A DNA stretch of 64,000 bases from Owenia fusiformis (Eukaryota > Annelida > Polychaeta > Sabellida > Oweniidae). Below, in pieces: positions 7,625 to 60,700 of this stretch. The translations under genes were made by a program, and so were the position numbers. The notes beneath the pieces are model-generated. The model was not told the origin of the DNA and did no database searches. It saw only the letters and a list, made by a program, of their open reading frames with translations. The DNA lies in the NCBI GenBank assembly GCA_903813345.2, contig CAIIXF020000001.1, positions 9,957,598 through 10,021,597 on the forward strand, read 5' to 3'. The stretch's first letter is position 1, and each line of letters opens with the position of its first letter.

Positions 7625-8292
7625 CACACCAGATACCCTCAAAACGGTAAAGTCAGATACCGTTGTCACAAATGGCGGACGTAACCGTCGCTTCAATTAG
7701 ATTTTCATGAACTGTATGTTTGATAGAGCGACTAGATTAAATTCCATTGGTAAAGCAATCATTCAAAGTGTTTTTCTACTTACCATTAGTTAAATATGTT
7801 CTACCATCGAAATAAAGGCTTTAATTTTACCGATTGAAATATGACACAGGCAGCGGATACTGTATAAATGACAACTGTAGGTGTGGGTCAAATGTGATGT
7901 AAAACTGGGGTGACAACGGTATATTATATGTAAAGACAAAGATAAAGTGTCTATTTACTGTTGTCATTTTCCTATGTCCCAATGCAATACATCCACCATA
8001 GTTCATTGTCACATATTACCATATGCCGTTGTCTCTGTAAATTATTTCAAATCCAGATTCCGTTGTCATTGATCATATTGAAGGCGCTATATTGTAGCAA
8101 TTCACATCCCCATTTGATAGAAATTGGGATTTCATATAAAACATCATCAAAAGAGCTTAATACACACACAGAATTAGCGACGATAAAGTCCCATGAAATG
8201 AGGACCAAGTGAATAAAGAGTTGAAGCGACGGTTATGTCCACCATTTGTGACAATGGTATCTGACTTTACTGTTGTTAGGGTATTCCGTGTG
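7625..8292. mobile_element. MITE with CACAC ends and 5-bp target duplication, copy A
   Basis: Terminal inverted repeats of about 70 bp contain acggtaaagtcagatacc, ttgtcacaaatggcggac and taaccgtcgcttcaa at the left, and their complements at the right. The element starts CACAC and ends GTGTG. It is flanked by the direct repeat cttta (7620-7624 and 8293-8297). It has no transposase ORF. A second copy with a different target duplication is at 30003-30486. Confidence 0.85.
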
Positions 8293-8474: not shown

Positions 8475-15164
<6,690 letters not shown>

Positions 15165-18401: not shown

Positions 18402-19353
18402 ATGGAAGTCTCAATGAAACCAGATGCTGCAGAAGAAAAACTTAACAGGTTTTTACAATATGACTTTGAAAATGATGCTAGGTTTCAAGAAGGCTTGAAA
18501 TCCCTTGAAAAATCTCAACCCTTCAATGGTGATACGGCTAAGGAAGATGTACAAATGAAACTCTTAGATGCCCAGCTGTTTTATTACTCAAGGTATGGTA
18601 TTTTATGGTCACCTGCTTGTTCAATTGTGACACATTAGTGGTATGCCCATTGCCCATATTAAATATTATATGCAGCTCACGGTCACAATCCATCCAGACC
18701 TTTATCATTACAAAGCTATGGCAAGAATGTTATTATGTTCTTGTCATTATATTCATCTTATGGTTCATTGACCATTTTTATATTGATAAAGCCTGAATAA
18801 GTTAAGACAGCTAAACTAACCAAATATTCCTGTTTACAGGTTTTTTGAAAAAATAACTAAAGAAGAATACACCAATGGAATGTCAAAGAAACCAACAGCA
18901 GGAGTTGATGCCATGAAGAGTGACAACAGTAAAAACATCAACACTGACCTATCAGAGGATGAAGATATTGTCAATGATAAAAATGAAGATGACAATCAAG
19001 CATTAGCAATTAGTGCACCTGGCAACCAAGTGACAATTACAAATGATGTCTCTGAACAAGTAACTGCTCATGCATCCAATAACAGAGATGAAAGACATAT
19101 TGCTCAATCAGAAAATGACCTAACAGTGCTTGATGCAAAACATGATGAAATAACTGATGACAAAGGTGCCAAACCAAAGAAACCTGACAATAAAATGGAC
19201 AAGGATGGGACCCTGTCATTAAGCCAATTGTTAGATTTAGTAGAGTCAGGGCAAACCATACCAGGATTGGAAAATTTGAACATTGAGGCAACTGGAGCAG
19301 CTCCTACCCAGTCAGCAGCTTCTAGACCTAAGAAACCGTGGGAAAAAGATTGA
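18402..19353 (+). CDS. PEX39: PEX39-type peroxin with C-terminal KPWE motif
   Basis: Two exons, 18402-18592 and 18840-19353 (TGA), join in frame (TCA AG/G TTT) to 234 residues. A cttttttccag acceptor at 18382 just before the ATG suggests an upstream non-coding exon. The upstream in-frame alternative is closed, so the ATG at 18402 is favoured. The C-terminus has LSQLLDLVESGQTIPGLE, a spacer, then SRPKKPWEKD. The same order, a short LxQLLxLVxxGxxxPGLE helix followed by an (R/K)PWE motif, is what I recall for human C6orf226/PEX39, which helps PEX7 import PTS2 cargo into peroxisomes. Residues 1-77 form a separate, probably helical segment (EEKLNRFLQYDFENDARF, then FYYSRFFEKITKEEY). The linker, about 80-190, is acidic and low-complexity. 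The match rests on short motifs; the domain assignment is by memory. Confidence 0.75.
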
Positions 19354-22956: not shown

Positions 22957-23043
22957 CCAATCAATGCAAACGTGTCTTGAATCCCTCCTGGACTCGCATA
23001 CTAATTATATATTTAGATAGGCGTTGTTTGGGTCTTTCTCAGT
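22957..23043 (+). promoter_or_regulatory. Candidate core promoter of the IF gene
   Basis: CCAAT at 22957-22961, a TATA-like tatatattta at 23006-23015 and an initiator-like TCAGTT with its A at 23041. The TATA-to-A distance (about 33) and CCAAT at about -80 fit a classical promoter. The 5' UTR would be about 34 bases before the ATG at 23075. Confidence 0.6.
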
Positions 23044-23074: not shown

Positions 23075-26000
23075 ATGTCATCCCCAGTAAAATACGCAAC
23101 GAAGGGACAAACTGTTACATCCGAGAAAACTGTAACAGAAACAATTACAAGACAAACGAATAGTGCTTCAAAATCGGGCAGTTCTTTCTTAAACTCATCT
23201 CAAACAACGGCGACGGATGATGACCTCGGTTACAACTCCTTATACGTCCCATCGATGTCGCCTCGGAAAATTGTAATAAACCGCGAACGGTCAAGATCCT
23301 TGGGATCCCTCGAACACCTCAACTTCGGAGACGAGACATCAAGGGACGTCGGTTTGAACTACGTTGAAATTAACATCGATGAGGTTAAAACCACAAGAAA
23401 CCATGAAAAGAAGGAAATGCAAGAGTTGAACTCGCGACTTGCGAGCTTCATTGATAAAATCGCTTTCCTTGAAGCTAAAAATAAAATTCTGAGTGATCGG
23501 ATTGATTTCGACCTAAAGAAGTTTAAAGAAGATTGGAGCACGAATGCGGTAATTCAGAAAATCGAGGCAGAACTCAGACAAGCTCGGATACTCCATGATG
23601 ATGTCAACGTTGAAAATGGAAGATTGAAAATAACAATAAGGAGTCTAGAGGAACAGATCGACAAACTTCAAGAAGAGTAAGTTTTCCGTCCTCGGGGTTT
23701 CAAGTATATCCTCATGCACAGAGGGTCTTATAAGTCAGGTCCGCAGTCAATGTTTGCCAAGGGGGAGGGTCACAAAATCCAGAAGGGTTCACATATGACA
23801 ATTTTGCATGAAAAAACTACATGATTGTGAACGATTATTTGGTCAGGGGCCGACAAAGCCTAAACATTGTATTCATTGATATCAAAAGTTCTGCTGATCG
23901 GAAAATACACTTCCAGAAATCGTTTACCGGTATAGTAATTTTGGTTAAAGGTTGAACAATTAGTGCAGAGATGTTACCAAAGATCATGGACAAAATATAT
24001 CGAAGTTTGGATATTCCATCAAGGCTAACATCTGTTTTCGTTATCTCTAAAGAAATCCCCCAAATGGACGTTATTTCAGCTGAAATTCCTGCTGTTAAAA
24101 TGTAGAAGGTCTGTGTTCTCTCTACATGCCTTGTTGCCACTTTAAATACAAGTAACGTGTTTAAATCAAATTAATTTTGAGATTTACAGTTTTTTGCCCA
24201 ACGTTTCTAAAATCCGTTACGTGTACCACATTTATGCGTTGTAGTTCAATTAAAACGAGATGCGGTTGCTGATACGTTCGGCTATAACCCCTTGTGCGAA
24301 ACCTCTCATATGTTAACAATTTTACCACGGCAAGCTTTAGAATATTATATTTAAGTTTTCAAACAAATTCTTGTATCATATGGTTCGATATCAAGACTTC
24401 ACACATAACATAGCTATAACCCTTATATGGGTTAGGGCTTCAAAAATGTCAACTCATATTATAGGAATGGCAAATTGGAAACTGCTTACCAAAACTCAAA
24501 ACAAGACATTGATCGTCAAATGCAAGTTGTAAGCGACTTTGAGGCCGAGAATAATCTCCTTCGCAAGAATGGCAATGCGAAAGACGCCGAGAGCAAGAAA
24601 GACAAGGCTGAAATCAAACGTCTCCAGGAGAAACTGAAGGAAAGGGGAGATGTAAGTAAAATGATCCGGTTTGGCCATTCAAATTTGGTTATACCATTAA
24701 CGCTCACTCCCTTGGATATTGAACTTTTCAGACTGAAACAAACAGTTTTTCAATTGCCTCGATATGTTCTTCTTAAAACATTGAAATGTGAATATGCAAT
24801 AAGATCACATTTTAATGGAAGGAATTCCAGGGAAAATTACACGTATTGAATTCAATGAGGATTTGCTCCCAGAGTGCAACATCGATATTCTGTCCGACAT
24901 ATGAGCATGTCGTGATACACAATTCGAATTCAAACAGCCGCCATTTTGTTCACTTCAACATTTGAATCGTGAATTTTGGTCTTATTTCCCAACGAAAATT
25001 CCAAAACTCACAAGGAATGATCGAGGTATTGGTTCGAATCTTTTGAACTGTTTATTTTGAATTTATAGTCGGTTATAATTTCAGAAAATAACGACATTTA
25101 GACGTTTAGTTTCGATCCTGGGAGCCAATCCTCCTTGTTTTGAATTCTAAAAGTCAAAAGTGTATGCGGTTTTATCTGTCACTCTCTTTATGTTTATGGT
25201 ATTTCTACCTTTTAATAATTAAAAATTCTGAAATTCAGTGAATGGATTTTTTAATTTGTTGTGTTTTCCACTCCCCAACCTATCAAATAACTGCAGATGG
25301 TCTTGTCGACCAACTGTATACGTACGTCTTAACTTCCTTGCTTAACTTGCATTTTCATTTATATTTCGATGCACATTTCAGACCCTCAACCGTGAGAACC
25401 TCAACCTGGTTAAGTCGGAGAATAAACGCCACACAGTCGAGGAGGAATTCGAGTACTTCAAACATCTTCATGAACAAGTAAGTTCCGTTGCAGTATAATG
25501 CACGACCTCCAAATTGTTACAATTTCAGGCTACCCCTCGGTTAAATTATTGGACTATTTCATTGGTTTTGCAAAAAACTGAAAAGGGGAATTGATAGGTA
25601 GGTCATTTAGATCAGGGAGCTGACAAACGCCGTAACACTTCTGAACTATAAATGGTATTTTTAGAAAAATCAGTATACGAAACGTGGCACAAGTACCGAA
25701 AAATCGAATACAAAAGATATAGTACATGGTAAATTATGTATAAGTATCCTTAATATCGATTGGTTTAATTTCTACGTGATGTGACATTTGCAATAAACAT
25801 TAAAATGAAACTGGTATGGCCCAGGAACTTATACTAATATAATCTTGAAGGTGAAAACTGTTTACATATACAGGGTGGGCCAAAACACCCATGTTTTCGA
25901 ATAAGGCATGCATTTCAATTTCTGCTACAATTCTTTTTAAAATGGCTTACGTATACTTTTAGTGATTTAAATGAAAATGTGAACAAATAATTTCCCTTTG

Positions 26001-29000
26001 CATTCGTTCGACTTCACTTCTAAAAGAGAGCTTCGTCGGTAGTTTATAACTAGACTCTGCGCACAGAGTAACAAAAATTCTAAAAATAGGTTGTGGATGC
26101 ATATTTCAAGTTGTAAGATAATCATTGTAAAACTGTATCATCAAACAACTTATAAATCTGATTTGTAAGTTGATGATACTATTTTACAGTGATTTTAGTT
26201 AATTAGAACCAGACGGTTGTACGAAGGGTGGCCCAAGATAACTTAGCTAATTTTTGATGAAATTACATGAAACTTACAAGTGATGAAGATCAACATCTTA
26301 AATACTTTAAAAAATTATTTTGGGTACTTTTCTAGATAATTTTTTTTAATATAGGGAGTTAGCCACCTGTAACTAAAACACGCGAACCGCGTTACAACTA
26401 TTAATATCCGAGTGACAGGGTTCCTTTATTAAGAGCTACCTAGAAAAATACATAAAATAGATTATGTCTTCATGAAATCAATACACAAAGTAGTTATGTT
26501 GTTGATCTTCATTATTTGAAATGTTGTAGTAATTTTATTAAAAACAAACAAAATTAGAGCAGGGCGTCCATGACTTTTGGATCACCCCTTGTATTGTAGA
26601 CAATCTATAAACAGACGTGTATGGTTGAGCCTCTCAATATTTTAATTTCAATTCATAATGTTACTGTAAAACACTTAGATTCCAATGATCATTTTAATTC
26701 ATAGTACTATATATTCTTCACTATATTTATGACACTTTCTGCATGATCAGTTCTTTGCATAATTGATTCCTGTATCTCGTGCAAAAATATTTTCAACACG
26801 CATGCCTTTTTAGAAAAGTTGCAAAGGTAAATGTCATTATTCCCGGCTTACATGTGTATTGCATTTTTTCAGCGACTCAACGACTTGGAAGATCTTCTGA
26901 CAAGGGACCGCCAAAAGGAAGAGGATATATGGAGCAAGAAGATGGAGCAAGGCCTCAAGAAGATTCAGGAGTCCTACGATGAACAGATTGAAATCACCAA
27001 GACGGCATATAGTTTAAAGGTAAGGTCAATTCAAGGCAAAATCAGAAAATACAACTTATACGAGGGTAGGCTGAACGCAACACATCGTGTGATACAACGA
27101 TGAATTCAATTTAATAATTTGAGATTTTACTTTTATTTGACCTTCAGTGACCTTCAAAAGGTCAAAAAGATGATTATTTACCGGTTATGTAGATTTAGGT
27201 CAATTGGGTTACTAAAGACAAAATGAGGTCTGAAAAGAACTAACAAACTAACTAACTTAGTAACTGACATAAAACCGACGTAGGAACCAACCTTGTATCC
27301 AGCTAAGTAACTAACTTTGTAACCTGACCTTTGGTATGTGATTTGACCATTCATATACTTATTTCCTTTTTTTATTAATTAGGTATCATCATCACATATA
27401 TGAATATGCGAAGAATGACTTATTGTACAGGAACTTCCAGGTCATATTTTTTTAGTAATCAGAACGTACAAGGAAAAATCATGCACTATACACCCCTATG
27501 CAAATGGTCATTGCAAATTATGAAAATACATCTACAGAGAACAGTACTTATTAGAAATGACCTTGAATTTCCTGTACAATAGGTCCTATTATTTGTTTAT
27601 TTAAGAACACCCAGTTAGAAAATGACATCAACCAGTACAAACGACGCTACCAAGAGAGCGTTACTGAGTGGGAATCGCAAAACAATCAACCAAACCAGGA
27701 GATTAAGCAATTAAGAGAGGAGATGAGAGCAATGAAGATTAAGTTTGACGAGACCAAGGATGTCAATCTCTCATTGAATGTTGAAATTGCGGCGTATAGA
27801 AAGCTCCTAGAGGGGGCCCACGACTCGTAAGTAGCTAAGTTAATGCAGCGAAAACCAATGGGGCAAAGCTAGGATGAAGAATTGGCTAGAGGCTCGAGTA
27901 AGGTTTGATGTAGGTTTTAAAAAAAGAATCAGAGGAATACATTAAGGATTTCATGTTTGATTTTGTGTGTATTCGATTTAGGAAGACATTTAACTTTCTA
28001 GTAACGTTAAAAAAATTTCGAACAGTGCTCCATTCTTTTCGTAGTCAATCTACCCATATAAGTGGTCGGTTGGAAAATGTTTTTTTACACATTCCTTTGA
28101 TCATTTCATCCCCTGTCGTCTAAGAGTGTCTTAGAAGTATTAACGTTTTGGCTATAATTTAAAAGATCATAAGTGTACGTTGTCAATTCGAATGTACGTT
28201 GTCCCATTGAACTTACTCAATTCACAGTTAACCCTAATGCAGGCAACGTATTTTTCATAACAGTAACAGACAGGGGGTAAGATGTATTTACAATAAAGCA
28301 GAACAATTACAGAATTACTTCAATTTGATTGAATTATTGAAACTATTGAGCACTTTCCAGTTATATTATAAACGGGATTTTAAAAAGTCATATTCAAGTA
28401 TAGATCTATCTATCAATGTAACTAACAAAACTTAAGGTATAGAGTCAAATAATCAAAGAGTTCGAGTACGAGTACATTCGAGTTGACAACGCACATTTCT
28501 AATATTTTTAAATTACAATAAATACTTGAATACCGTCCTAACTTGTGTAGTTTAGAAAACACATTCTCATAGAATTCGACACTCTTACACGCCAGGCGAG
28601 GAAATGATCAAAGGAAATGTGTAAAAAACAACATTTTCAACCGACCAATTATCTTTATGGGTAGATTAACCACGAAAAAATCTAGCACTGTTTGAAAATC
28701 TTATAACGTTATTGGATCTAGAAAGTTAAATGTCTTCCCAAATGAATACACACGAAATCAAACTTGAAATCCTTAATGTATTGCTCAGATAATATTTTTA
28801 AAACCTACATCAAACCTACATCATTGTCTTTGCTTTGAATCGGTTGATAGTGACACCGTACATCTAAAGTGTACGACGGCGTGTTTTGTCACTGTACGTT
28901 GTCGATGGTTAGGCGTGAGTGCGTAGTTATGTACGAGCATTGATGCCATCTTTAAATCGATCTATAACTCGTGGATAATATTATTTGATACATATTCCTC

Positions 29001-31789
29001 TCTATAGAGTTGGTTTAAAGCAGGCAATAGAGGCATTGCTTCGCCAGTACAGCAAGAAACAGGAAATCCAAGAGACTGGTAGGTTGCCATACGATATTTT
29101 TTAAATACACGATTTTTTAAAGCTAAAAAATAAAGATTGATCACTATCATATTTTTATGAATATTTAGTTTAGTTTTTATTTCAACCCACACCTGTGAGT
29201 ATAAATATCTACAACATGTAAAACAAAGAAACAATATCTAAAAAGATAGTTTAGTCCAACTTGATTAATCATTTGGTTGTCAAACGAATAAACCAAGGTT
29301 TTAAAGAACGTTAGCATTGCATCAGTGACACACTTAAACCAATGTAACTATAAACTGATAAATACACAACAACTTTGAGAAATGATGACAAAGAGTAGGA
29401 TAAATGATTTTGAAAATATCTATGATTCCAGAACAGGATTTGATGGAACAAGAAAGAGGTAGGCTGTTATGCGAAATTTACTAAATATACTAATTTTCAT
29501 AACTCAAAAAATTAAGGTAGATCAATATCATATTTTTATGAATGTTTGGACAATTTTGAGAAATAATGACATAGAATAGGTTAAATGTTTTTGGAAATAT
29601 TTATGTGAAATAAAAGTTTGATATAAAAATGTCCTTGAGTCTTTTTACAGTGTTGAAACCAACAAAAGCAATTATAGACTAATCAGTGTTTCATAGTATA
29701 TGTTTGTACGAGACAGATCGCATTAGCAAGGGAGAGATGTGGGCTAAATTTAGATATCAGAAGAAAGCCAATGGTCCAATCGGAATCTGTGAGTGTTCGG
29801 AAGATGCCACCTATATTGTCTTAGAAAATACACAGAGCAAGGTAACATAAAATGAATACGACTTTGCGTTATATCACATATCAAAAAATAGTCAAAAAAC
29901 CAAAGTTATCAAAAGGCCCAAATGTGAACCCCCTGGATATTTTTTGAAAAGCGAACTCCCCTTAGCAAAAGCTGGCAACGGGCCTGATCAATATAGTAGA
30001 TTCACACCGGAATAGCATGACAACGGTAAAGTCAGATACCGTTGTCACAAATGGCGGACATAACCGTCGCTTCAATTAGATTTTCATGATCTGTATGTTT
30101 AAAAGAGTACCTAGACTAAATTCCTTTGGAACAACAATCAAATGTTCTAACATCGTCCGAAATAAACTCTTTAATTTAACCTATCAAAATGAGATATATA
30201 CGGGACAGCGGACACTGTAAGCCGTTGTCTTCGTCGATTATTTCAAATTCAGATTTCCTTGTCATTGACGATATCGAAGACGCTATGTTGTAGCGATTCA
30301 CGACCCAATTTGATCGAAATTGGGATTTCATATGACACATCGAGATCATCACAAGAGCTTAATACATGCACAGAATTAGCGACGATAAAATCCCATGAAA
30401 TGAGGACCAAGTGATTAAAGAGTTGAAGCGACGGTTATGTCAGCCATTTGTATCGGACTTTACCGTTGTCAGGCTATTCCGATGTGAGATTATTGAAAAA
30501 GTTATTCTTTGATTGAAGGACGAAGACCTCACTGGTTGGAGTATAAAACGTTTGCTTGAGAACACTAACGAAAAAGTCGAATATACATTTCCAAAGGGAG
30601 CAAAGGTCAAAGGAAATAGCAAAATCAAGGTACGTTGGTATGTGTAGCTCCTCAGTGGCAGTAACCATCCATCAATCAAATGACTTCATTTCCTACTCAA
30701 TTCAGGATATGGAAAGAAGTGAAATACCCTTGGACCAAGGATGTCAGTAACCGGAATTGTGCAACATTCCCAAATGTTAATCGTATTAATAGCTGGAGAG
30801 GTGGAATGAAGCTATACTGAGCGGAACATTTAGAGCGAGTTTCAGCAGGGTTGACGTTCAAACCTGAACCGATCATAACAGAATCACCCCTATCATATTC
30901 TCAAAGATGTCATGTTATCTTTAACCAATTACTTCATTTCTCTCACAATTTGCCTTTCTATGACTCTTTAGTTTCACTATTCAATTTCCACCACCATATT
31001 CAACACCAGAATTTTGTATTAAAGCCATTGTACAGGGGGAGATTTGAACGCTTGAATGACGAAAGAAATCTGCCTAGAGTCATCCGCCATACCACCCAAC
31101 TATTCAACCATCATTTTTTTAGGTGTGGGCAAGTGACCACAAGCCGTCTGATCAATCTGACGACTACGAAATGCCGCATGAGCAGAGTTGGAGACAAGGG
31201 CTCAGTGTGTCCACATCCTTGGAAAATCCAAATAAAGAGGTAAACATGGATTTTGTGAAAAATGACAATTTTGAAATAGTAATAGCGATAAGCCTATCAA
31301 TGTTTAAATTGAACCTTAATTTTGTCCTGATACAAAAGTTCATAAAGGAGCGCGAGTTATATGTAGAATGAATTTTGGCAGTTTTTTCATGCGTTTTGCT
31401 TCTCTTTTTCTTATAAAAATTATCAAAACTCGCAAGATTACACCCTTTAATTCAAAAATATATGTCTCGTTTTCAAGGATTATCCACGGATTAACACCCA
31501 GAGGGCAGAGAATCATTGTGCCAGGAACTTTTGAATAAAAAGAAAGCTGTTTTGAATAGGTTTTACTTCTGGCAAAATGCATGAAAACCCCTATTCATTT
31601 TTGTCACACCCTGTACATATAACTCGCACTCCTTTATGAACTGATTAGTCTTGGGGCATTCTGGGTAAATGTTAAGGCGGAAAGTTATCTGTTCTACCCA
31701 AGAATGCGATACTGTTCACTCTATGTCTTGCTTTTACTTTTTAGGAGAAGGCGACCCATGTGAAACGGTCAGTGTACAATACAACATAA
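23075..31789 (+). CDS. Cytoplasmic intermediate filament protein with lamin tail domain
   Basis: Eleven exons join in frame to 582 residues: 23075-23676, 24465-24651, 25382-25477, 26873-27019, 27606-27826, 29008-29078, 29432-29458, 29717-29841, 30519-30629, 31123-31239, 31745-31789 (TAA). The head (1-108) is Ser/Thr-rich. Coil 1A holds the helix-start motif MQELNSRLASFIDKIAFLE (114-132). Coil 1B is long: exon 2 is 187 bp, which is 126 bp more than the 61-bp exon of vertebrate type III genes and matches the lamin-type 42-residue insert. The helix-end motif is EIAAYRKLLEG (404-414). The tail (about 455-577) is a lamin tail domain: IVLENTQSKDEDLTGW, YTFPKGAKVKG, KVWAS, SWRQG, KATHVKR. There is no nuclear localisation signal or C-terminal CaaX box, so it is cytoplasmic, not a lamin. 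Exon sizes 96 and 221 match conserved IF exons, but the expected 126-bp coil 2 exon is absent. Confidence 0.93.
23835..24145. repeat. Dispersed repeat in IF intron 1
   Basis: It shares blocks with 5620-5990: gattagtgcagag-type sequence, aaaatatat(c/t), tttggatattccatcaag, atctctaaagaaa, and gccttgttgccac near its end. It carries no gene of its own. Confidence 0.55.
25871..26591. mobile_element. TA-flanked mariner-type MITE in IF intron 3
   Basis: The left end is cagggtgggccaaaacaccc; the right end is complementary to caaggggtgatccaaaag. TA flanks both ends (25869-25870 and 26592-26593). About 720 bp with no transposase ORF. A related internal block, gggtggcccaagat, lies near 26227. Confidence 0.6.
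27827..29007. other. Large IF intron containing an imperfect inverted repeat
   Basis: Sequence around 27900-28100 (for example caatctacccatataagtgg) recurs inverted around 28630-28810 (for example ttatctttatgggtagatt), so much of this 1.2-kb intron is a large hairpin-forming, transposon-like insertion. No exon is seen in it. Confidence 0.6.
29059..29605 (+). repeat. Tandem duplication around IF exons 6 and 7
   Basis: The end of exon 6 plus its donor and intron (29059-29170) resembles exon 7 plus its donor and intron (29434-29545); both read gtagg(t/c)tg and tatcatatttttatgaat. The acceptor-side flank 29369-29425 resembles 29549-29605 (gagaaat(g/a)atgaca). The 27-bp exon 7 thus looks like a partial copy of the 3' part of exon 6. 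Confidence 0.75.
30003..30486. mobile_element. MITE with CACAC ends and 5-bp target duplication, copy B
   Basis: Same family as 7625-8292: inverted ends with cggaatagc, acggtaaagtcagatacc and taaccgtcgcttcaa. It is flanked by the direct repeat agatt (29998-30002 and 30487-30491). It is 184 bp shorter than copy A through internal deletion. It ends only 32 bp before IF exon 9. Confidence 0.85.
31337..31642. mobile_element. Small MITE-like inverted repeat in the last IF intron
   Basis: The left end agttcataaaggag, then gcgagttatatgta, is mirrored at the right end (tacatataactcgc, then ctcctttatgaact). About 306 bp with no ORF. Target duplication not identified. Confidence 0.65.
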
Positions 31790-34082
31790 GCATACACAGA
31801 CGTAATCATAAACATTCTTGGCTGGACTGTGTCGCAGAAATTATGGTCCTATTAGGAATTACTGTCCCCATCTATACATTGACTTTATTCTGTGTATCTT
31901 CTTTATTTTTATTATATTTTCCTACTAATCAGTGGTAGAAACGTTGAATTTTCTGTTTAGCAAAGTTTGCTTTGTTCAAATGATCAAGTGACCAGGTTTT
32001 ATTTTTTGTTTGTCCTAAAATGGCAAAAGACAGATGAAATGAAGGACTTGAAGAGACAAGAAAAATGATTTTGGGGTGACGAGAAATAAGGCCATCGCTG
32101 AACAGATATATAATTAATTTGCAATTTTGTTTAAGTCAATGCAAGCTGATATTGTACCTGAATATTATTCCACAACAAAATATATTTTGTTTTGATTTTG
32201 ACAAATTCATTGTCAATGAACGTGTGATGGGAATCGTTGAGGATTTGTGTCTTCATCGAAATTCAATACTGATTTGGATTCATTAGCCCGAAACTAGTGA
32301 CAGATTAGAGTTTTAATAAACACTTTGGGATCGCTTAGTCTGTTAGTATTCCTGATTTATCTGAAAAGTTGAGTAACCCCCATGGTCAAGAGAATAGCTC
32401 TAAGTAAAGTGCTTTTTACATAATATAAGGGGGCAAAAGTTTAGTTCAAAAAATTTTAACTGGGGAAATTATTTTTTGAAATTATTTTTTTCCATAAAGT
32501 GAATTTTGAAGAAGTAAAATTATTTCAACCTTTAACCTAAAATACCCTTGCGGCAAAATAATATAATTGTCAGTTTCTACCTTACTGAAGAAAAATAAAA
32601 TAGTTTGAACCGTTCGAAATCGTTATTTTTAAAACTCTTTAAAATCTATTTTTTAAATAAATCTGTAATTTACTGAATTGAAATGACGAAATAGGTACTT
32701 ACAAATTTTGTAAGTAGTGGACAGTGAACCTCTTAAAGTTGACACCACTACCTTTCTAATCGTAGATTGAATTGTGTTCAATATGTCACCTTAAAGTTTC
32801 ATAAAATTTTCCTTTTTCTATGTTAACATTTGAATTTTGAGTTCGAATCAATTCATCTTCGACAAAAGCATTAGTGCGTGTCATCATATAACTATTATCG
32901 AGTTTCACTGCGCCCATTTCTTTAAAATATTTATAGTTCGGGTACACTCATTATTTTTAGACAGGTGTGAGATATTTTAATAGCAATAATGGGGAATTTG
33001 ACATGCACTTTATCATGTCAAATAGTAACTGGATAATCTCGAACTTTCATTTTTCTGATATACAGGGAATCTCTCGAGAAGATGAGCCTTGATCTCTAAC
33101 TCATAAATATTGAAAAATTATCGTTGACTTTGGTATGTTTTATAATACATAGTTGCTAAGACACGGGAATAATCGTGTGAGTAGAAAGTACCAATCAGTT
33201 AATACATGTGATAATATTCGTATGTATGCCCCTCTATACAATAGCACTGTATTTTTGTATGCCCGCGGTGCTAGTGAATTGCGTAATGTTTTAATGATGT
33301 TTCCCCCCAGGTATCACTAAAAAGAACAATATGCCCTGTAAACATTTTATCAAGAGTAAATCATGTGGCGGCTGGAAATGACCGTCACTTTTAACACGTA
33401 ATGGTCACATCATGATCAGAGCCCTGGTTATAGCCATAACTTACGAATATTTGCATTGATTTGCATTAAAATGTCCAAATATGTTAACATATGTGATACC
33501 ATTGAGGTTTCAAAGTCTGGAAAATCAAAATGACCAACATGTACATATTTGTTGCAGAAAAACAATTTTGAAGCAGGTTCAGAAATTATTGCTTTGTTAT
33601 GTGTTAAAATGTACAGGTATGCTCTCATATGTAATTCCATTGAGGTTTTGGAGTCAATATGGCTGTCATTTAGACTGAAATCAAAACACCATTTGAGCCC
33701 AGTACTCATGGTACTATTTTTAGACTCCAAATGAAGCTGTCAAAATGGAGTGATCAGTACACAAAGAACTTTTAAATCTGGTCAGCACTTGCATTTGTAT
33801 TGTTTATTCCACTCTTAATATGGTATTTATATATTAATAAAATATGTTTTGTTGACTTAATAGCACCCGTTTTTGTAAGTGATTGAATTCATTGAACTTA
33901 AATGTGTTATAACAAGGACTAAACGAGCCCTCAAAGAAATGTTATTTGTTCAAGGAATTTTATGTAAGGATTAGTCTCTCAAGTTTCAATATACAGAAAA
34001 ACACACTTTATAGCCTTGAAGAGTTTTAAACGGAAATTGAAATATGACATTTGAATTTGAAGTCCCTGGGTGGCATAAGAAA
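31790..34082. other. IF 3' UTR and intergenic sequence
   Basis: AATAAA at 32315-32320 followed by a GT-rich stretch is the best poly(A) signal for the IF gene, giving a 3' UTR of about 530 bases. At 33466-33665 there are two diverged tandem copies of a roughly 135-bp unit (aaaatgt, then ccattgaggttt in each). No further coding exon seen. Confidence 0.55.
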
Positions 34083-34598: not shown

Positions 34599-34739
34599 GG
34601 ACTTACAAGATGTCTCCCAGTACAAATATGCTTGTAATATGTTCATATTCATGCACCTTTGGACGTCTACTATGCGATGCATTTGGCCCCTGTTGTTTCT
34701 TACATCAATGCTGAGTTTGGAAATACTTAAGACAAGATG

Positions 34740-35445
34740 AAAAAGATGAAGCATTGATGTGACAAAGTAGATACAAAGAATTGTTGATATATGACATTCT
34801 GATACTAGTCCAGTAAATATGGCATTCCAGAAAGACGAGACATACAAATTGTTGTATTGATATGACAAAGTACATATGAAGAAATGTTGATATATGACAT
34901 TCTGATACTAGTCCAGAAAAGATGGCATTCCAGAATGACTCAAGACAAGATAAAAAAGTGTTGTATTGATATGACAAAGTACATATGAAGAAATACTGAT
35001 ATATGACATTCTGATACTAGTCCAGAAAAGATGGCATTCCAGAATGACTAAAGACAAGACAAGAAATTGTTGTATTGATATGACAAAGTACATATGAAGA
35101 TTGATATATGACATTCTGATACTAGTTCATAAAAGATGGCATTCCAGAAATACTAAAGACAAGACAAAAAATTGTTGTATTGATATGACAAAGTACATAT
35201 GAAGAAATATTGATATATGACATTCTGATACTAGTCCAGAAAAGATGGCATTCCAGAAATACTAAAGACAAGACAAAAAATTGTTGTATTGATATGACAA
35301 AGTACATATGAAGAAATATTGATATATGACATTCTGATACTAGTCCAGAAAAGATGGCATTCCAGAAATACTAAAGACAAGACAAACAATTGTTGTATTG
35401 ATATGACAAAGTATATATGAAGATTGATATATGACATTCTGGAAC
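34740..35445. repeat. 109-bp satellite, about six copies
   Basis: The start gttgtattga of the unit recurs at 34851, 34960, 35069, 35174, 35283 and 35392 (spacings 109, 109, 105, 109, 109), with a more diverged unit before the first. Each unit contains acattctgatactagtcc and gatggcattccag. Long frames on the minus strand here are repeat artefacts. Confidence 0.93.
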
Positions 35446-35708: not shown

Positions 35709-37918
35709 ACAAACAAGGCATTAACATGACAAAATGTCACCACCTAGTTGCTCACAATATTATGAGTTCAAACTTTAGTCAGATTTGAATTTCTGAGAAC
35801 TTGTAAAGTCAAATTAGAACTTCTGAAAAGATGTAGATGATTTTGAAAAAAAAATTTGGTCAATTTGAAGCAAGTTGAAAACAGATCTTTTTGACCTTTT
35901 TGACCTTGAGAAGGTCATTAAAGGTCAAATGTCAAATCTAAAGTCAGATTTGAATTTCTGAGAACATGTAGATGATTTTGAAAAAAAAAATTAGTCAATT
36001 TGAAGCAAGTTGAAAAAAGACCTTTTTGACCTTTTTTGACCTTGAGAAGGTCATTGAAGGTCAAATGTCAAATCTAAAGTCATATTTGAATTTCTGAGAA
36101 CATGTAGATGATTTTGAAAAAAAAATTTAGTCAATTTGAAGCAAGATGAAAAAATACCTTTTTGACCTTTTTTGACATTGAGAAGGTCATTGAAGGTCAA
36201 ATGTCAAATCTAAAGTCAGATTTGAATTTCTGAGAACATGTAGATGATTTTGAAAAAAAAATTTAGTCAATTTGAAGCAAGTTGAAAAAAGACCTTTTTG
36301 ACCTTTTTTGACTTTGAGAAGGTCATTGAAGGTCAATTGTCAAATCTTAAGTCAAATCTAAAGTCAGATTTGAATTTCTGAGAACACGTAGATGATTTTG
36401 AAAATTTTTTTTAGTCAATTTGAAGCAAGTTGAAAACAGACCTTTTTGACCTTTTTTGACCTTGAGAAGGTCATTAAAGGTCAGATGTCAAATCTAAAGT
36501 CAGATTTGAATTTCTGAGAACACGTAGATGATTTTGAAAAAAAAAATTAGTCAATTTGAAGCAAGTTGAAAAAAGACCTTTTTGACCTTTTTTGACTTTG
36601 AGAAGGTCATTAAAGGTCAAATGTCAAATCTAAAGTCAGATTTGAATTTCTGAGAACATGTAGATGATTTTGAAAAAAAAAATTAGTCAATTTGAAGCAA
36701 GTTGAAAAAAGACCTTTTTGACCTTTTTTGACTTTGAGAAGGTCATTGAAGGTCAAAAGTCAAATCTAAAGTCAGATTTGAATTTCTGAGAACACGTAGA
36801 TGATTTTGAAATTTTTTTTAGTCAATTTGAAGCAAGTTGAAAACAGACCTTTTTGACCTTTTTTGACCTTGAGAAGGTCATTAAAGGTCAAATGTCAAAT
36901 CTAAAGTCAGATTTGAATTTCTGAGAACACGTAGATGATTTTGAAAAAAAAATTTAGTCAATTTGAAGCAAGTTGAAAACAGACCTTTTTGACCTTTTTT
37001 GACCTTGAGAAGGTCATTGAAGGTCAAATGTCAAATCTAAAGTCAGATTTGAATTTCTGAGAACATGTAGATGATTTTGAAAAAAAAATTTAGTCAATTT
37101 GAAGCAAGTTGAAAAAAGACCTTTTTGACCTTTTTTGACTTTGAGAAGGTCATTGAAGGTCAAATGTCAAATCTTAAGTCAAATCTAAAGTCAGATTTGA
37201 ATTTCTGAGAACACGTAGATGATTTTGAAAAAATTTTTAAGTCAATTTGAAGCAAGTTGAAAACAGACCTTTTTGACCTTTTTTGACCTTGAGAAGGTCA
37301 TTGAAGGTCAAATGTCAAATCTTAAGTCAGATTTGAATTTCTGAGAACACGTAGATGATTTTGAAAAAAAAATTTAGTCAATTTGAAGCAAGTTGAAAAC
37401 AGACCTTTTTGACCTTTTTTGACCTTGAGAAGGTCATTGAAGGTCAAATGTCAAATCTAAAGTCAGATTTGAAGGTCAAATGTCAAATCTAAAGTCAGAT
37501 TTGAATTTCTGAGAACATGTAGATGATTTTGAAAAAAAATTTAGTCAATGTGAAGCAAGTTGAAAAAAGACCTTTTTGACCTTGAGAAGGTCATTGAAGG
37601 TCAAATGTCAAATCTAAAGTCAGATTTGAACTTCTGAGAACATGTAGATGATTTAGAAAAAAATTGAAGTCAGTCTAAACAGTATTTGTTAAGTTATAGG
37701 AAGTTGTAAGAAATTGTTACAGACGCCAACCGCCGGACGCCAACCACCAACCACCAACCGCCGGACGCCGTCGCAAAAAAACGGAGACCATAACAATATG
37801 TCACCACTTTTGGTGGTGACATAAAAAAACGGAGACCATAACAATATGTCACCACTTTTGGTGGTGACATAAAAAAACGGAGACCATAACAATATGTCAC
37901 CACTTTTGGTGGTGACAT
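35709..37918 (-). mobile_element. HINE/Helentron-like non-autonomous element with central tandem array
   Basis: Bounded by aaacaaggcattaacatg / aaaatgtcaccacc on one side and, on the other, a 48-bp terminal module repeated three times: acggagaccataacaat, then a hairpin with arms atgtcaccac and gtggtgacat. The hairpins lie at 37798-37822, 37846-37870 and 37894-37918. The interior is a 136-bp tandem array (35830-37660) followed by a gaagtcagtctaaacagt block and a CCAACC/CCGGACGCC-rich stretch. Asymmetric ends, a terminal stem-loop and a central satellite are what is known for HINE/DINE-1-type elements. No ORF. An inverted copy is at 52787-54058. Confidence 0.65.
35830..37660. repeat. 136-bp tandem array, about 14 copies
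   Basis: The landmark gatgatttt recurs at 35836, 35971, 36107, 36243, 36391, 36527, 36663, 36799, 36934, 37070, 37218, 37354, 37522 and 37647. Most spacings are 135-136; two are 148 owing to an extra 12 bp. Each unit has TGACCT-tttt-TGACCT-tgaga-AGGTCA-ttga-AGGTCA and an AAATCTaaagtcAGATTT inverted repeat. Confidence 0.95.
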
Positions 37919-47300: not shown

Positions 47301-50300
47301 AGCATATGGTACCACTCTTGTATTAGCTCAAGATAGTAACTCAATCCTTCCACAATTAGCACATGGTGCCCCAGTCCCATTTAAGCCACATACAAGATTG
47401 ACCATGATGACCACTCAAATCAATTTTATACAATAAAGAAGTACACAATTCATTTTGAATTTGATCTTGGTGAAACTGGTAGTTGTGTTCCAGACTGCAT
47501 TCGGCACTTACATGTTCGCGGAGTCTTTCCACCATACCCTGGATCTGTTGGCATCTGTTTGCTTCAGCCGCCTTTAGTTTCTGGTCAATCTGATCCTCGA
47601 GCAGCTTCCTGTATCGCTCCACAGCTGCCTGGACTTCCTTTACACGTTGGTTCTACGATGAATCAGGGCACAAGTTACAACACAGAAAATGCATGCAACG
47701 TCGTAAAATTCATGAGATCATCTTAACGAATGACGAAAGGACAAAACATAATTCATCAACAGTTTTTAGCACAAACCCTTTTGCTAATGGGTTGTAGTGA
47801 AGTCACAATTAAGCAACCACTTCTACATATATCCAGTATTATCCCTAAGGAGGAACTAAATGTAAAAATAATATTCGCATGTTCTTTACCCAGTGGATTT
47901 CAGAGCCATTATGCTAAACTAAATGTCACAATAGAAAATAAGATCTCACAGGACTACCTCATTAGAACTCTATATCACGACCATAACATCAAATAAACAT
48001 CAAACTTTGACCGTGCAACAATTGCTCATGGACATGGCAATGTTCAAATCAAAGCAACATTAAAATGATCCCACAACACGCAATTATAAAATAAACTTTA
48101 TGGAGACATCAAAAATGATTGAGTTTAAATTACTAAATAAAATATTTTATACAGAATAATTGCATGCAAAGGCAATAAAACTGATCAAGCTACTAATAAG
48201 AAAAAAAAAATAATACTAAGAACTGGTATACAAAATAATTCTGTATAAATACCTCTATGCTGGATTTATTACATTCAGGGACCTATATTTGAACTTACTT
48301 TGTGTGAATAATCAGATTTACCTTATTATATCCCAGAGCAGTAATCCATAAACTGTCCTTAAGCTAAATACTTTAATCTACTTACTGAATCAGGACCTCA
48401 ATACACAGTACTGTTGATCCAGTGCTTTCATTTTCTACATACTAGCAAATTCATATAAATTAAACACAATACTGTACTCTTGGTAATTTTCGTGTGCTAC
48501 TATATTTAGCGCTTTTCGCGAGTTTTGAAAACTCGCGAAATATAATAGCCGCGAAATTCAAAAAGTTCTAATTTGCGAAATATAATAGTCGTGAAATTCT
48601 TGGGAATTTATTTCACTCAATGTTGATGATAGTTTCATCAAGTATTGGGCGATAAAAGGTTGGAAGGTTACTGTATTCTTACATTTGAATTCTGGAAGAT
48701 CATAACTGAATGGACATTCTCACAAAATTGCTCAAGATGAAGGGCAATCATGGCTGATATTGAAGTGGAAAGCGTGGTATAGCATGACAAACTAGGGATG
48801 TCACGGAACAAAAATATTTCAGGACGGGAATTATCCATTTTGGGATGGGACATTCGGGACGGGACGGGACATTACCAATAAAATAGTTAAGAAGTTTAAA
48901 ACAGTTTAAAACAAATTTTTGTAAAAATTGAAACACCTTTAATCGTAGATGTTTTTTAAATGTCATAGTATATCATCCCTGAGCTCAAGAGACCTTAAAG
49001 CACTTCTGAGGCTGTGGTGATTACAGTTTTATATTGGTCAGCTGGGGCTAATGCTTCTTAATTAAACTCACAATATGAGCCTCAAGGTAGTCTCGCTGAT
49101 GAAATTAAGCAAGATAACAATACAGAACAGTACATGTCAATGATGCATGTTTTGCTTCAATGGCCTGTGTAATGGCTATAGATCAACAGCACAAGTAGTT
49201 CTTTTCCAACCATTGTAAAACTCCATCCTTTCTGGGTGATATCATAATGGCACAAATGTATGCTAATTATACCTCACAAATCAAATTCCACACATTTGCA
49301 TAAAATGCATACTTACCAAGCAATAACAACGCAGCCTTTGTGCTAGATGTCAAATCCTTGGAAGCAATTTGTGATTTACATGCAGTTTAAAGAGAAATTA
49401 GTCATAACTTACATGTTCATTCATTTTTTTCTGGAGGTTGGAAATCTGTGTTTCTCGCTTTTCTTCCATAGATGATAGACGTTTCACCATTTTTTCTTCA
49501 GAAGCTTTTTGGAACTCAGCTTCTTGCTCTAGCTTCTTTCTTAGGACTTCATCAGCTTTTTGTTTACTTTCTTGAAGTGCCTTCTGGCGCTGAGCCTCCA
49601 ATTGCTAAAATTACAATATCATCCATGTGAAGGATTTTACATTCAATTCATAATGTATGATTGCAAGACTATTTTTACAACAAATATATGAAATATCTGT
49701 ATTAGGTTGTCACATTGGACAAACAAGGCATTAACATGCAAAATGTCACCACCTGCTATTTATTACAGATCCCGAACTACTAACACTTGGATGCTAACCT
49801 CACAAAAATTGGACACTATAACAATAGGTCAACGCTTCTGATGGTGACATAAAAATGAGGACAAGATATGTGTCTACCATATCTGTCAAATTTAGCTTTA
49901 GTGAACTGTATTACATATACATGTACAGTATAATTAAATAAAAATTCAGGTTGTTAAATATCACAAGCATGCCCCTCACCAATTTCCTCTCCTCAGCCTC
50001 AGCATGTTTCCTCTCTATTTCTTCCTTGGTGATACCTGGCTTCTCTTTGGGGGGTGAGATAGGCCTGGGAGTATTCTCCGCAGAGGCTGGCTTCAGGATG
50101 ACTTCATAGGACAAACCTCCAGTAGTTTCACGTGGACTTTCTGCAATAATTATTCACATTTCTTCACATCTTATTTTGGTTATAATTTATTGAATTATTC
50201 TCATAGACTCGAATTAGTGCTGGTTAATAAAGCAATGTTAATAATTCTTAATCTACTTCAACTGTAAATTCTACCTAACTTTTAAATACCTAGACCATCT

Positions 50301-53300
50301 ATTTTATTATTAGGACATGAGGTTAAAACATAAGAGGAAGAACAGAGATAAGATGCTTATGTATAATGTGCGGTAATAATAATATATGGTAAATATTGAT
50401 ATTAATATCAACCAAACATTTATAACATGAAAACACTGGCAAAGCTGAAAATAAATCAAAAATACTAGACTGTGTAAAAATGAAGATAATCATCTCAAAG
50501 TAATCAAACACAAGGATGAATATTACAAAGCATAACATAAGATCTCTGACTAGACAGGATATATTCCTATTGAATATTGTGAGTCATACACTGTGCAGAC
50601 AGACAACTGAAAAGTGATCTGATTATACATTATAAGTAAGTAAGCCATGCACTTGAATGTAAATCACCTCTAGTAAGAACAACCTCTATCCCATGAGGGT
50701 ACATCAAATAAAGTTAGAATAGAATTTCTTCATAGTTCATTCAATAAGTTAAGGAAAAGTGTAACAGCACTAAGGTCCTGAAATTTTAATGATGTTGATT
50801 TTCTGTTTTTTACTGCACAGAGCTATTCCTTACCAAACATAATGAAACCAAGAACAGTTAGAATTCGCAGATTTAATTCAATTTCAGACCATATTTGGAA
50901 ATATTGACATATGTGAAGTGGAAATATGAAAATTAAACAGAATTTATTCACATACTTATTATATACCCTTTAAAAAGATGGAGTTGCTCTCAATTCGTTC
51001 TTCAAAATGTTATTTTTATTAAAATAACGCCCATTTAGATACTTGAGTACATGGGTCATATCCAAAGAACACAAAATAATACATTCTGAATAATATAGCA
51101 GAATTTACCCATATTAATATAAGAGTTAGTTTCCATCAAGAGAAGGCCATCCCAAAAAGCTGCCATTTTATGATCTCCTAGGTTCTTAAAACATATTATG
51201 GAATAATTTCTTTCCTTGTGAAGTTGAGATGAAATCAGGAAAAAATAAACTAACACAGCAGATTCTTGATGGGAAGGCAGCAAATAAAACATGAGAGGAG
51301 AAGACGCGCTTGCAATACTAGAATTCACAATCCAAAAACATATATATGAAACACACATGTACAAAACCTACGGAAAACCTCCTGAGTTTTGTTGAAACCT
51401 CGTGGAGTTTTGGTAAGTTATTGATTGGGTACAGACCCGCATGTCTATTGAGATTTAGGGAAGAATTGCAAGGGTGTAAGTTACAATGATTAATGATTAC
51501 AGTTAAAGGATTGATGACTGACAGTGGAGGAATTATCAAGATATCCTATAGATTAAAATCAGTCTCTGAAGCAAACATGCCATGCGAAAAGCTTGCAAAT
51601 GAAAAAATACATATAACAGGACTCGGAACTGAACTTATGAACATATTGGTGAACCGACCATGTGTAACATTATGTAACAACATGACAGCTACTAATGCAG
51701 CCAGGCATGGTGAACTAATATCACATGGAGCATTGGTGATGTAAAACATAATAGGGTCGATGCCAAGCATAATGATGGTGATATTTCACTGTAAAAGAAC
51801 ACGGAAGTCAGCCTTGCCTAGAATTCTTATACCTTTCCAGACGATAACGGCATCAAAGAGTTGTAGTTGGGGGTGTATCTTGTCAGGCAGCTGTTTGGTA
51901 GGGCCTCTCAGACAGAGGTACACACTCAGCCAATTGCAAACTATGCACAAAATACAAGTGCTATGACAACCAACTGTTTGTAGAAAATGAACTTAAGAGA
52001 ACCATTTCAGTGTCTATTTATATGACCGTTCATCAGGCATGTATAAAATCTCTGCCCTCGTCTTCTTACTCTCTACATGTACTTCCAACAGAAGGGATAA
52101 CAGGGATTTCATACATGACCACTTAACTAAGAATCATTGTTCTCGATCATGTTATAATCAGTAGTCTTGCACCAAGCCGCTTTACTACGCTCTTACTCCT
52201 TTTTTCGGACACAATGTTTAAACAGATACCGGGGAGGCATGAGGGCTTAGTACAAGACTATTTGATCTAAAACATTCGTCCTTTCATTAATGTATGTTAT
52301 ACTTTTTTTGTGGATCATGTCAGGGAATACATACTAACAGCTTTAGAAAAACAAGTGAAAGGTTAATTAGATACAGATCATTAATTCAACGTGTTCTTTT
52401 TTCCACTTTATCTGATTTAACTTGTTTGTCTATAGTCTCATAGCTCTTAATAAAATGAAACATCGTACATTTGGCCATGTAAGACTGATATATATTACTG
52501 AAAAAGCTCATTTGCACGATGCGATCTGAACTCAGTTTGCGATACATCAAGTACATTGTATGTTATTCTCATTAGGTGTCATGCAAGGAAAAACACATTT
52601 CTTGACCAATTAACAATCTTTTCTGAAAGAGTGGGAATCAGAGAGGAAATTGATTGGGAAGTAGCTGTGATTCATTGTAATTATGGAGAAAATAACTTTA
52701 AAGTAGCGGTCACACTAGCTTACGTATGGGCTTACAGTTCGCCACTGTATGAATAATTTTGGGCATTAATTTTTGAATTAATTGATCAATGTGGTGACAT
52801 ATTGTTATGGTCTCCGTTTTTTTCCTACGGCGGTTGGTGGTTGGTGGTTGGAGGTTGGAGGTTGGCGTCCGGCGTCTGTAACAATTTCTTACAACTTCCT
52901 GAACTTAACAAATACTGTTTAGACTGACTTCAATTTTTTTCTAAATCATCTACATGTTCTCAGAAGTTCAAATCTGACTTTAGATTTGACATTTGACCTT
53001 CAATGACCTTCTCAAGGTCAAAAAGGTCTTTTTTCAACTTGCTTCACATTGACTAAATGTTTTTTCAAAATCATCTACATGTTCTCAGAAATTCAAATCT
53101 GACTTTAGATTTGACTTTAGATTTGACATTTGACCTTCAAATCTGACTTTAGATTTGACATTTGACCTTCAATGACCTTCTCAAGGTCAAAAAAGGTCAA
53201 AAAGGTCTGTTTTCAACTTGCTTCAAATTGACTAAATTTTTTTTTCAAAATCATCTACGTGTTCTCAGAAATTCAAATCTGACTTAAGATTTGACATTTG

Positions 53301-59307: not shown

Positions 59308-60700
59308 ATTTTTTTATTTTTTTTTATTTAGATTTTATTTATTCAGGGATATCTAATAAGAAATACATATGTTTTCTTGTTTCCATTAGAACCCTGCAGA
59401 CACACATACACACTACATTTAACAATAAAATATGTGACAATACATATCATAAAATTAGAAATTTGTAAAAACAGTACATTAATATGTGTAAAAATACTAT
59501 ATGACTAGTCGATAAAAATAAGCATTAAAAGTAATTGTCACACTTGACATTTGAGCATATTAAGACATGTAAAATTACAATTATTCACTAATTGAAGCAA
59601 GGAATTGCTTTTTTAGATGAACTTTAAAAGATTGCACTGAGGCAGATTCCTTTAAATCTAAAGGTGCCTTGTTCCAGAGAACAGATGCTCTGTGACTAAA
59701 AGTTTGTGTGCCTGCATTATTACAATTTTGTTTAATAAAAATACATTTGTTAGTTGTAGCACGAGTACCATAGTTGTGAGTGTCCTTAGTTAAGGTAAAA
59801 CTGTCCTGCATATAAGTGGGAACCAGTCCATTCACTACCTTATACATTAGTGTCAGGTTGTGCATGTCCTGCCTCTCTCTTATGGATGGCCACTTCAGAG
59901 TATTTCTAACATCCTGGGATGGGGTACGTGGGGCACATTTAACTATCAATCTACCAGCACGGTTTTGGAATCTCTGAACTTTATCTAAGAGTTGTGAGCT
60001 GCATCCAGAGATGACAGCATCACCATAATCAAAAATGGGTGTGATGGTAGATTGGATTAAAAGTTTGGTTGTATTGAGGGTAAGAGAATCTCTCACTCTC
60101 CCAATGACCCCTAACCTTTGTGACAATTTTGTACAAGTTTTGGTTATATGTGTTTTCCAAGTGAGTGTTGGATCAAACCACAAACCAAGATATTTGAAAG
60201 CGTCGACTTGTTCAATTTTTTCTCCATTTATGACTATGTCGTCACCTTCATCTACCTTTGACAGTTTCTGGGATGACCCATACACCATGAATTTAGTCTT
60301 CTTGACATTTAATGTTAATTTATTTGAGCACAGCCATTTGTGTACCACATTCATATCAGCTGTTAACTTTGCTTTAATAGAGTGAATATCTTTGGCTTGG
60401 TAAAATATGGCAGTGTCATCTGCATAGAGAGTGACTTTGGAGTCTTTAATTTGATTTTGGATGTCGTTTATGTAGAGAATAAAAAGCAGAGGCCCGAGTA
60501 CAGAGCCCTGAGGTACTCCATACTCGACTGGTAATGAAGATGACACTTTGCCATTTATACTTACACATTGACTTCGACCAATGAGATAACTGCTGAACCA
60601 AGACAATTCTTTGTCTCTGACACCGATGTTTTGCATTTTCATGAGCATTAGGTTTACATCGACGGTGTCAAAGGCTTTTTTCAAATACACGCGTTCCATT
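59308..60700 (-). mobile_element. 5'-truncated CR1/Jockey-like LINE
   Basis: The minus-strand frame 60699-59581 encodes the palm and thumb of a LINE reverse transcriptase: LKKAFDTVD at its very start (the upstream DL of this motif is lost at the break), GVPQGSVLGPLLFILYINDI, LYADDTAIF, NKLTLNVKKTKFMVYG and YLGLWFD. It is cut off at the first catalytic motif. An A-rich tail lies at about 59308-59333 (T-rich on the plus strand). The sequence type fits CR1/Jockey relatives. Nested inside the hAT-like element. Confidence 0.88.
59581..60699 (-). CDS. LINE reverse transcriptase fragment (372 codons)
   Basis: Coding remnant of the LINE above. It keeps the PQGSVLGP and YADD catalytic motifs but lacks the N-terminal reverse transcriptase fingers and the endonuclease. 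The first Met is not a genuine start: the bases just outside do not continue the family sequence. No internal stop or frameshift is present, so the insertion is fairly young. It is unrelated in detail to the LINE at 12.2-14.2 kb. Confidence 0.85.
   Translation of the reverse strand: MERVYLKKAFDTVDVNLMLMKMQNIGVRDKELSWFSSYLIGRSQCVSINGKVSSSLPVEYGVPQGSVLGPLLFILYINDIQNQIKDSKVTLYADDTAIFYQAKDIHSIKAKLTADMNVVHKWLCSNKLTLNVKKTKFMVYGSSQKLSKVDEGDDIVINGEKIEQVDAFKYLGLWFDPTLTWKTHITKTCTKLSQRLGVIGRVRDSLTLNTTKLLIQSTITPIFDYGDAVISGCSSQLLDKVQRFQNRAGRLIVKCAPRTPSQDVRNTLKWPSIRERQDMHNLTLMYKVVNGLVPTYMQDSFTLTKDTHNYGTRATTNKCIFIKQNCNNAGTQTFSHRASVLWNKAPLDLKESASVQSFKVHLKKQFLASISE

Follow-up and report, generated by a model that had tools for sequence, protein, structure and literature searches.

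Intermediate filament (IF) proteins in general are described as having a very similar organisation of coil 2 of the rod (PMC3046923), and the same source gives its conserved length as 142 residues. Here we analysed a stretch of 64,000 nucleotides from the annelid Owenia fusiformis (NCBI GenBank assembly GCA_903813345.2, contig CAIIXF020000001.1, positions 9,957,598 to 10,021,597 of the forward strand; this whole stretch is called the window, and all positions below are counted in it), which carries an IF gene whose predicted protein, in contrast to IF proteins in general, is short of about 47 residues of coil 2. Two described proteins come near to this situation. Filensin (BFSP1) is reported to have a coil 2 shorter by 29 residues and to form filaments with its partner phakinin (PMC10626283), and a C. 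elegans lamin is reported to be without two heptads in coil 2B (PMC3046923). These two proteins show that the conserved length is not absolute, and it does not hold for the Owenia protein either. Like the latter, filensin is a natural IF with a shortened coil 2, but it is a vertebrate lens protein and its loss is smaller, while the C. elegans protein shares the natural loss of whole heptads from coil 2B but is a nuclear lamin and has lost only two of them.

The closest parallel is GFAP deltaEx5, a splice mutation of human Alexander disease (PMC11900225). The recombinant human protein alone was reported to form filaments with slight irregularities and clumping, 69% being pelleted at low speed, and an admixture of 10% sufficed to raise the aggregation of mixed filaments (PMC11900225). 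The exon lost there is most likely the homologue of the one apparently lacking in the Owenia gene, and the recombinant protein still assembles into filaments. In contrast to this disease mutation of an IF with a short coil 1B (S-type), however, the loss in the Owenia gene is apparently the normal state of an IF with a long coil 1B, and exon 4 is in addition five residues shorter. Neither GFAP nor filensin is known to have a lamin tail domain.

L-type cytoplasmic IFs, the type described for protostomes (PMC3065449, PMC4829535), are reported to combine the rod with an Ig-like tail as a class (PMC4448529), and members such as Macrostomum Macif1 (PMC4016567) resemble the Owenia protein in their long lamin-type coil 1B and in the stutter in coil 2. 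No natural IF lacking the exon in question was found among the titles and abstract openings listed by our literature searches, which is a weak negative, as older invertebrate work on IF gene structure was probably not covered.

An apparently intact L-type IF gene

One complete-looking IF gene of 11 exons occupies positions 23075-31790 of the window on the + strand, with exon sizes of 602, 187, 96, 147, 221, 71, 27, 125, 111, 117 and 46 bp. Each of the ten introns has GT-AG borders and the phases agree along the whole gene; the 582 codons run without a stop to give a spliced product of 582 amino acids (aa). The GC content of the exons is 37-50%, versus 26-39% for the introns, and an AATAAA lies downstream of the gene at 32315. 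The rod exons of 187, 96, 147 and 221 bp had been proposed by an earlier reading made from the letters of the DNA (the sequence-only reading), and their coordinates and sizes were reproduced here. The features of the gene are given below; z values, here and later, come from local alignments of segments, partly reflect coiled-coil composition, and mean homology only when large.

23005-23014, + strand: TATA-like box, ~60-70 bp upstream of the start codon (read from sequence).
23075-23676, + strand: exon 1, 602 bp; head, coil 1A with the helix-initiation motif LNSRLASFIDKIAFLEAKNKIL, L1 and the start of coil 1B (open frame, GT donor; vimentin exon-1 rod segment, z = 17.9).
24465-24651, + strand: exon 2, 187 bp (61 + 126 bp); coil 1B including a 42-residue lamin-type insert (lamin A aligns nearly gap-free).
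25382-25477, + strand: exon 3, 96 bp; end of coil 1B, terminating at HLHEQ (vimentin exon 3, z = 9.2).
26873-27019, + strand: exon 4, 147 bp; L12 and the first part of coil 2, ending AYSLK at heptad position g (weak similarity to vimentin exon 4 and lamin A, z 1.2-1.8).
27020-27605, + strand: intron 4, the expected site of a 126-bp coil 2B exon, with no credible exon found (enumeration, profile search).
27606-27826, + strand: exon 5, 221 bp; rest of coil 2B, stutter and the helix-termination motif EIAAYRKLLEG, counterpart of type III exon 6 (vimentin exon 6, z = 22.2; PF00038 positions 241-310).
29008-29078, + strand: exon 6, 71 bp; tail (phase, splice sites).
29432-29458, + strand: exon 7, 27 bp; tail (phase, splice sites).
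29717-29841, + strand: exon 8, 125 bp; start of the lamin tail domain (PF00932).
30519-30629, + strand: exon 9, 111 bp; lamin tail domain (splicing, Pfam).
31123-31239, + strand: exon 10, 117 bp; lamin tail domain (splicing, Pfam).
31745-31790, + strand: exon 11, 46 bp, its last base one past the stop codon; C-terminus VKRSVYNTT and stop codon (no CaaX).

The spliced protein matches the Pfam Filament domain (PF00038, E 1.9e-19) and, over residues 466-573, the lamin tail domain (PF00932, E 2.2e-11), and both rod-end motifs, LNSR...KNKIL and EIAAYRKLLEG, are present. The solved sequences closest to head plus rod are those of vimentin (8rve, E 1e-11) and lamin A/C (6jlb, E 4.3e-10). The C-terminus ATHVKRSVYNTT has no CaaX motif, and no nuclear localisation signal was found after the rod, the simple basic-cluster patterns tried matching only within the rod. 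Since CaaX-less lamins are reported to exist (PMC10125929), the absence of CaaX is not decisive alone; taken together, however, a rod with a lamin tail domain, no CaaX and no basic cluster after the rod support the prediction of a cytoplasmic L-type IF of the non-chordate, protostome type. Within the window, the 417-aa head and rod found only their own five exons when used as a query (E up to 1).

A predicted coil 2 shorter by 47 residues

Coil 1B was found to have lamin length, in agreement with the sequence-only reading. It has 42 extra residues; LN[DS]R to HLHE/KLHE spans 177 aa versus 130 in vimentin, and the alignment with lamin A is nearly gap-free from coil 1A through the end of coil 1B. 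The opposite is seen beyond this point. In this gene the 96-bp exon carries the HLHE/KLHE motif at its end, and the distance from that motif to LLEG is 120 residues versus 167 in vimentin, a deficit of 47, of which 42 correspond to one exon and 5 to exon 4 (49 residues versus 54). Two strong anchors make the predicted shortening of coil 2 by 47 residues firm. It comes close to the earlier estimate of about 42-46 residues lost, and the helix ends are kept, as that reading had stated. Alignment divides the deficit of exon 4 into four residues from coil 2 and one from the linker, so that coil 2 itself loses 46. Such a loss would amount to five heptads together with one eleven-residue repeat, an arithmetic that depends on the choice of a single residue; insertions and deletions in lamin rods are reported as 7, 11 or multiples of these (PMC4448529).

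Next, we asked which piece is missing. Within human GFAP, exon 4 is reported to cover residues 207-260 (54 residues; 162 bp) and exon 5 residues 261-302 (42 residues; 126 bp) at the start of coil 2B (PMC11900225), and exon 6 of mouse GFAP is given as 221 bp (PMC3418292). The exon order of 162, 126 and 221 bp that the sequence-only reading had given for type III genes is thus right, whereas in the Owenia gene the 147-bp exon is followed directly by the 221-bp exon. Exon 5 of the latter alone matches positions 241-310 of the Pfam Filament profile, starts with NTQLEN where vimentin has NESLER, and aligns without a gap from there to LLEG. The match to profile positions 2-186, in turn, stops at residue 337, seven residues short of the exon 4/5 border, so that the gap in the Pfam match falls at the same place. 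Segment by segment, vimentin exons 1, 3 and 6 align to exons 1, 3 and 5 with z = 17.9, 9.2 and 22.2, and the two exons 4 align to each other with z = 1.8; for reference, values up to z = 4.8 arise without homology, when exon 5 of vimentin is set against the present exon 5 or exon 6 of vimentin against the present exon 1, and intron 4 gives z = 2.4 with vimentin exon 1. Based on exon order, intron positions and the Pfam match, the missing piece is most likely the counterpart of type III exon 5 (126 bp, 42 residues, start of coil 2B), an assignment less firm than the 47-residue shortening, as sequence similarity alone only leans the same way.

The removal of such an exon would leave the coiled coil in register. 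The last residue of exon 4 occupies heptad position g and the first of exon 5 position a; in vimentin, exon 4 likewise ends on g, and exons 5 and 6 both start on a. The junction therefore has the register of vimentin and loss of the exon would be neutral for both reading frame and heptad, which agrees with the earlier idea of a heptad-preserving shortening. Moreover, the stutter is kept: as in vimentin, the register shifts by +4 ahead of the C-terminal part, and both proteins are in the same register at LLEG.

Exon 5 has two candidate acceptors 9 bp apart (tttaag at 27606 and cccag at 27615), and a three-residue variant is thus possible.

Intron 4 and the search for a coil 2B exon

Intron 4 is 586 bp long, within the length range of the other introns of the gene, and has normal splice sites. 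Enumeration of open phase-0 pieces of 60-220 bp between AG and GT on the + strand of this intron returned only two, 27463-27543 (81 bp) and 27463-27573 (111 bp). In these pieces 37-41% of residues are E, K, Q, R, D, L or A, versus 53-68% in exons 2-5, and they are not coil-like. The enumeration covered unsplit pieces within these size limits and with GT donors. Five stretches of the intron stay open on the + strand for at least 28 codons in the three frames, with E, K, R, D and Q making up 19-30% of residues; the heptad score of the stretch at 27419 is 0.72. Read in the frame of exon 4, the sequence beyond the donor reaches its first stop after 27 codons; a second phase-0 GT at 27089 (gtgata) appears by eye to be a poorer donor than gtaagg at 27020. 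The earlier statement that intron 27020-27605 contains no 126-bp exon therefore holds for this enumeration.

The window was also searched for the missing exon with a profile of vimentin and keratin-5 exon 5. Among its 2052 open pieces (at least 20 aa) the profile gave no match in intron 4 at E up to 10; five pieces were listed, the best at E 4.8, none of them in intron 4. Direct local alignment of exon 5 to intron 4 yielded z = 1.4 for vimentin and z = -0.1 for keratin 5. Homology has low power here, since vimentin exon 4 recognises the true exon 4 only at z = 1.8, and the absence of the exon from intron 4 consequently rests on the enumeration and not on homology.

A vimentin search of the window returned four pieces at E <1, namely exons 1, 5 and 3 and a piece at 49401-49604 on the - strand. 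The last matches the exon 5/6 region of vimentin at E 0.62 and was rejected as a stray IF exon, being a coiled-coil exon of a Stathmin-family gene (PF00836, E 1.3e-8) flanked by AG and GTAAGT. When prokaryote genome contigs were scanned once for contaminating relatives with the 73-residue protein of exon 5, 199 pattern matches came up, none of them a relative.

Probable exon loss and alternative explanations

Judging from the sequence, we consider it reasonably probable that an intact protostome (L-type) cytoplasmic IF gene lost a phase-0 exon of 126 bp, coding for the first six heptads of coil 2B, as a unit, and that 4-5 more residues have gone from the preceding exon. Several observations tell against this explanation. 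Exon 4 has no steady heptad register, its first windows scoring 0.12-0.35 in changing registers versus 0.25-0.65 in vimentin, and the stretch across the junction has a modest heptad score (0.53, reached by 322 of 5000 shuffles and so not significant alone). The similarity of exon 4 is not significant alone either, as 78 of 1000 shuffles reach the score with lamin A and 142 of 1000 that with vimentin exon 4, and alignments to vimentin that are not tied to exon borders, by phmmer or globally, scatter the gap over several places. Furthermore, a proline follows the stutter at a core d position of coil 2B and a Thr occupies a later d position, both being Leu in vimentin. Proline in this rod region of human IFs is damaging. 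With these two residues at core positions coil 2 may form a weaker coil or be less tightly constrained, and the predicted coil 2B is unusual in more than length.

The exon might, instead, exist in the animal and be absent from the assembly, the stretch of flanking intron that carries it having been collapsed or dropped. Two features of intron 4 represent sequence able to confuse assembly:

27119-27168, - strand: 50-bp fragment of a 136-bp satellite, the only one in the IF gene and one of two outside the arrays of this satellite (E up to 1e-4).
27417-27585: imperfect inverted repeat with 41-nt arms of 80% identity and 87 nt between them.

Either feature would help an assembly error and a repeat-mediated deletion alike. 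The window, however, is without N, the length of intron 4 and its splice sites are as expected for this gene, and the additional shortening by five residues lies within the coding sequence of exon 4, where a loss of intron sequence does not explain it. We therefore regard an assembly artefact as unlikely, though with a chance large enough to be reckoned with.

A highly divergent, split or non-canonical replacement exon could also have been missed in intron 4. This view draws on the weakness of vimentin-based searches for fast-evolving parts of the rod, of which exon 4 is itself an example, on the two open pieces at 27463 and on the heptad score of the open stretch at 27419. The enumeration, however, is free of homology and yields only the pieces of 81 and 111 bp with their low share of coil-favoured residues, and the five longer open stretches are likewise poor in charged residues and Gln. 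A hidden exon of this kind appears improbable.

Similar doubt applies, if slightly more strongly, to the gene being a recent pseudogene or a copy decaying after duplication, with exon loss as a part of the decay. The proline and Thr in the core of coil 2B and the shortened, register-poor exon 4 would fit with decay; across 11 exons, however, there is no stop, frameshift or broken splice site, and the rod-end motifs, the lamin tail domain, the TATA-like box and the AATAAA at 32315 have all been kept.

It is also conceivable, but very unlikely, that the 47-residue loss is real but affected type III exon 4, or portions of both exon 4 and exon 5, the 147-bp exon then being a diverged exon 5 or a mixture. 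Indeed, none of the possible counterparts is significantly similar to the present exon 4, and the free alignments scatter the gap. Among local scores, however, exon 4 fares best against the lamin A stretch (z = 1.7) and vimentin exon 4 (z = 1.2) and falls below chance against exon-5 segments (vimentin, z = -0.8; keratin 5, z = -1.2), a weak preference for exon 4 identity. In addition, the Pfam match carries exon 4 on from exon 3 to profile position 186, and 147 bp is nearer to 162 than to 126. Finally, a normal S-type rod with moved introns and nothing missing, which would account for the 297 residues of both rods and for their end-to-end alignment by phmmer, was rejected, because HLHE/KLHE splits the 297 residues as 177+120 here and as 130+167 in vimentin, and because the alignment with lamin A runs almost without gaps from coil 1A to the end of coil 1B.

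Possible consequences for filament assembly

If the exon was lost as a unit, a clean genomic deletion between its two flanking introns would have been tolerated, being neutral for frame and heptad. The protein would still form parallel dimers through coils 1A and 1B and the kept end of coil 2B, and would polymerise. The rise of a coiled coil is ~0.149 nm per residue. For 47 residues this makes coil 2 about 7 nm shorter, by which the overlap between coils 2 and the head-to-tail contacts would be shifted. The protein might then build filaments of its own or work with a dedicated partner rather than mix freely with full-length IFs; the clumping and mixing results for GFAP deltaEx5 and the pairing of filensin with phakinin make a dedicated partner or a separate homopolymer the likelier outcomes. 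The sequence-only reading had suggested that such a rod might not co-assemble with normal IFs. This is plausible, but the nearest experiment, GFAP deltaEx5, gave clumping filaments that act on the wild type.

That reading had also predicted an unusual ratio of segment lengths. The ratio was indeed found to be unusual, but the total rod from LN[DS]R to LLEG comprises 297 residues, identical to vimentin, the part up to HLHE being 47 residues longer and the part after it 47 shorter. Thus, the rod between the end motifs is as long as that of vimentin, a chordate S-type IF, but chordates lost six heptads from coil 1B whereas here the loss is in coil 2. The equality may be due to chance. As a tentative and rather doubtful possibility, a normally expressed IF may have regained the total rod length of chordates by the opposite route, keeping the six lamin heptads in coil 1B and dropping six in coil 2B as one exon. 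If this were true, selection would hold the overall length or phase of the rod and not the length of each segment, and the architecture that causes disease as GFAP deltaEx5 could be a stable, working design.

The lengths of IF coils have been treated as nearly fixed, and GFAP alleles without this exon cause disease dominantly. If a gene normally lacks the exon, it would offer a natural experiment on the rod lengths and overlaps needed for filament assembly, and on how cells avoid the dominant aggregation seen with GFAP deltaEx5.

Repeats and neighbouring sequences

Introns 6 and 7 share their ends, 29079-29166 with 29459-29547 (79% identity) and 29369-29424 with 29550-29605 (86%). The 27-bp exon 7 may therefore stem from a local duplication in which the donor side of exon 6 was copied too, and this may be a second sign of exon remodelling in the IF gene.

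Two other introns of the gene hold repeats. A large inverted repeat in intron 5 (27901-28130 and 28578-28817, arms of 230-240 bp, 85% identity) is likely a fold-back element, and an element in intron 8 (30002-30487) has inverted ends of ~74 bp, with similar sequence at 7625-8292. The 136-bp satellite forms two arrays of opposite orientation, at 35768-37663 and 52934-54021, and a tandem array at 34720-35441 consists of 6.7 copies of a 109-bp unit with 90% matches.

Outside the IF gene, a cytidine deaminase-like fragment lies at 11009-11341 (PF00383, E 0.00086, below the family cut-off), and two reverse transcriptase open frames at 12220-13971 (+) and 59584-60726 (-) match Pfam RVT_1 at E 5.2e-27 and 6.2e-25, respectively. 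Upstream of the IF gene, an open frame at 18820-19350 encodes a PEX14-like KPWE domain (E 5.5e-14).
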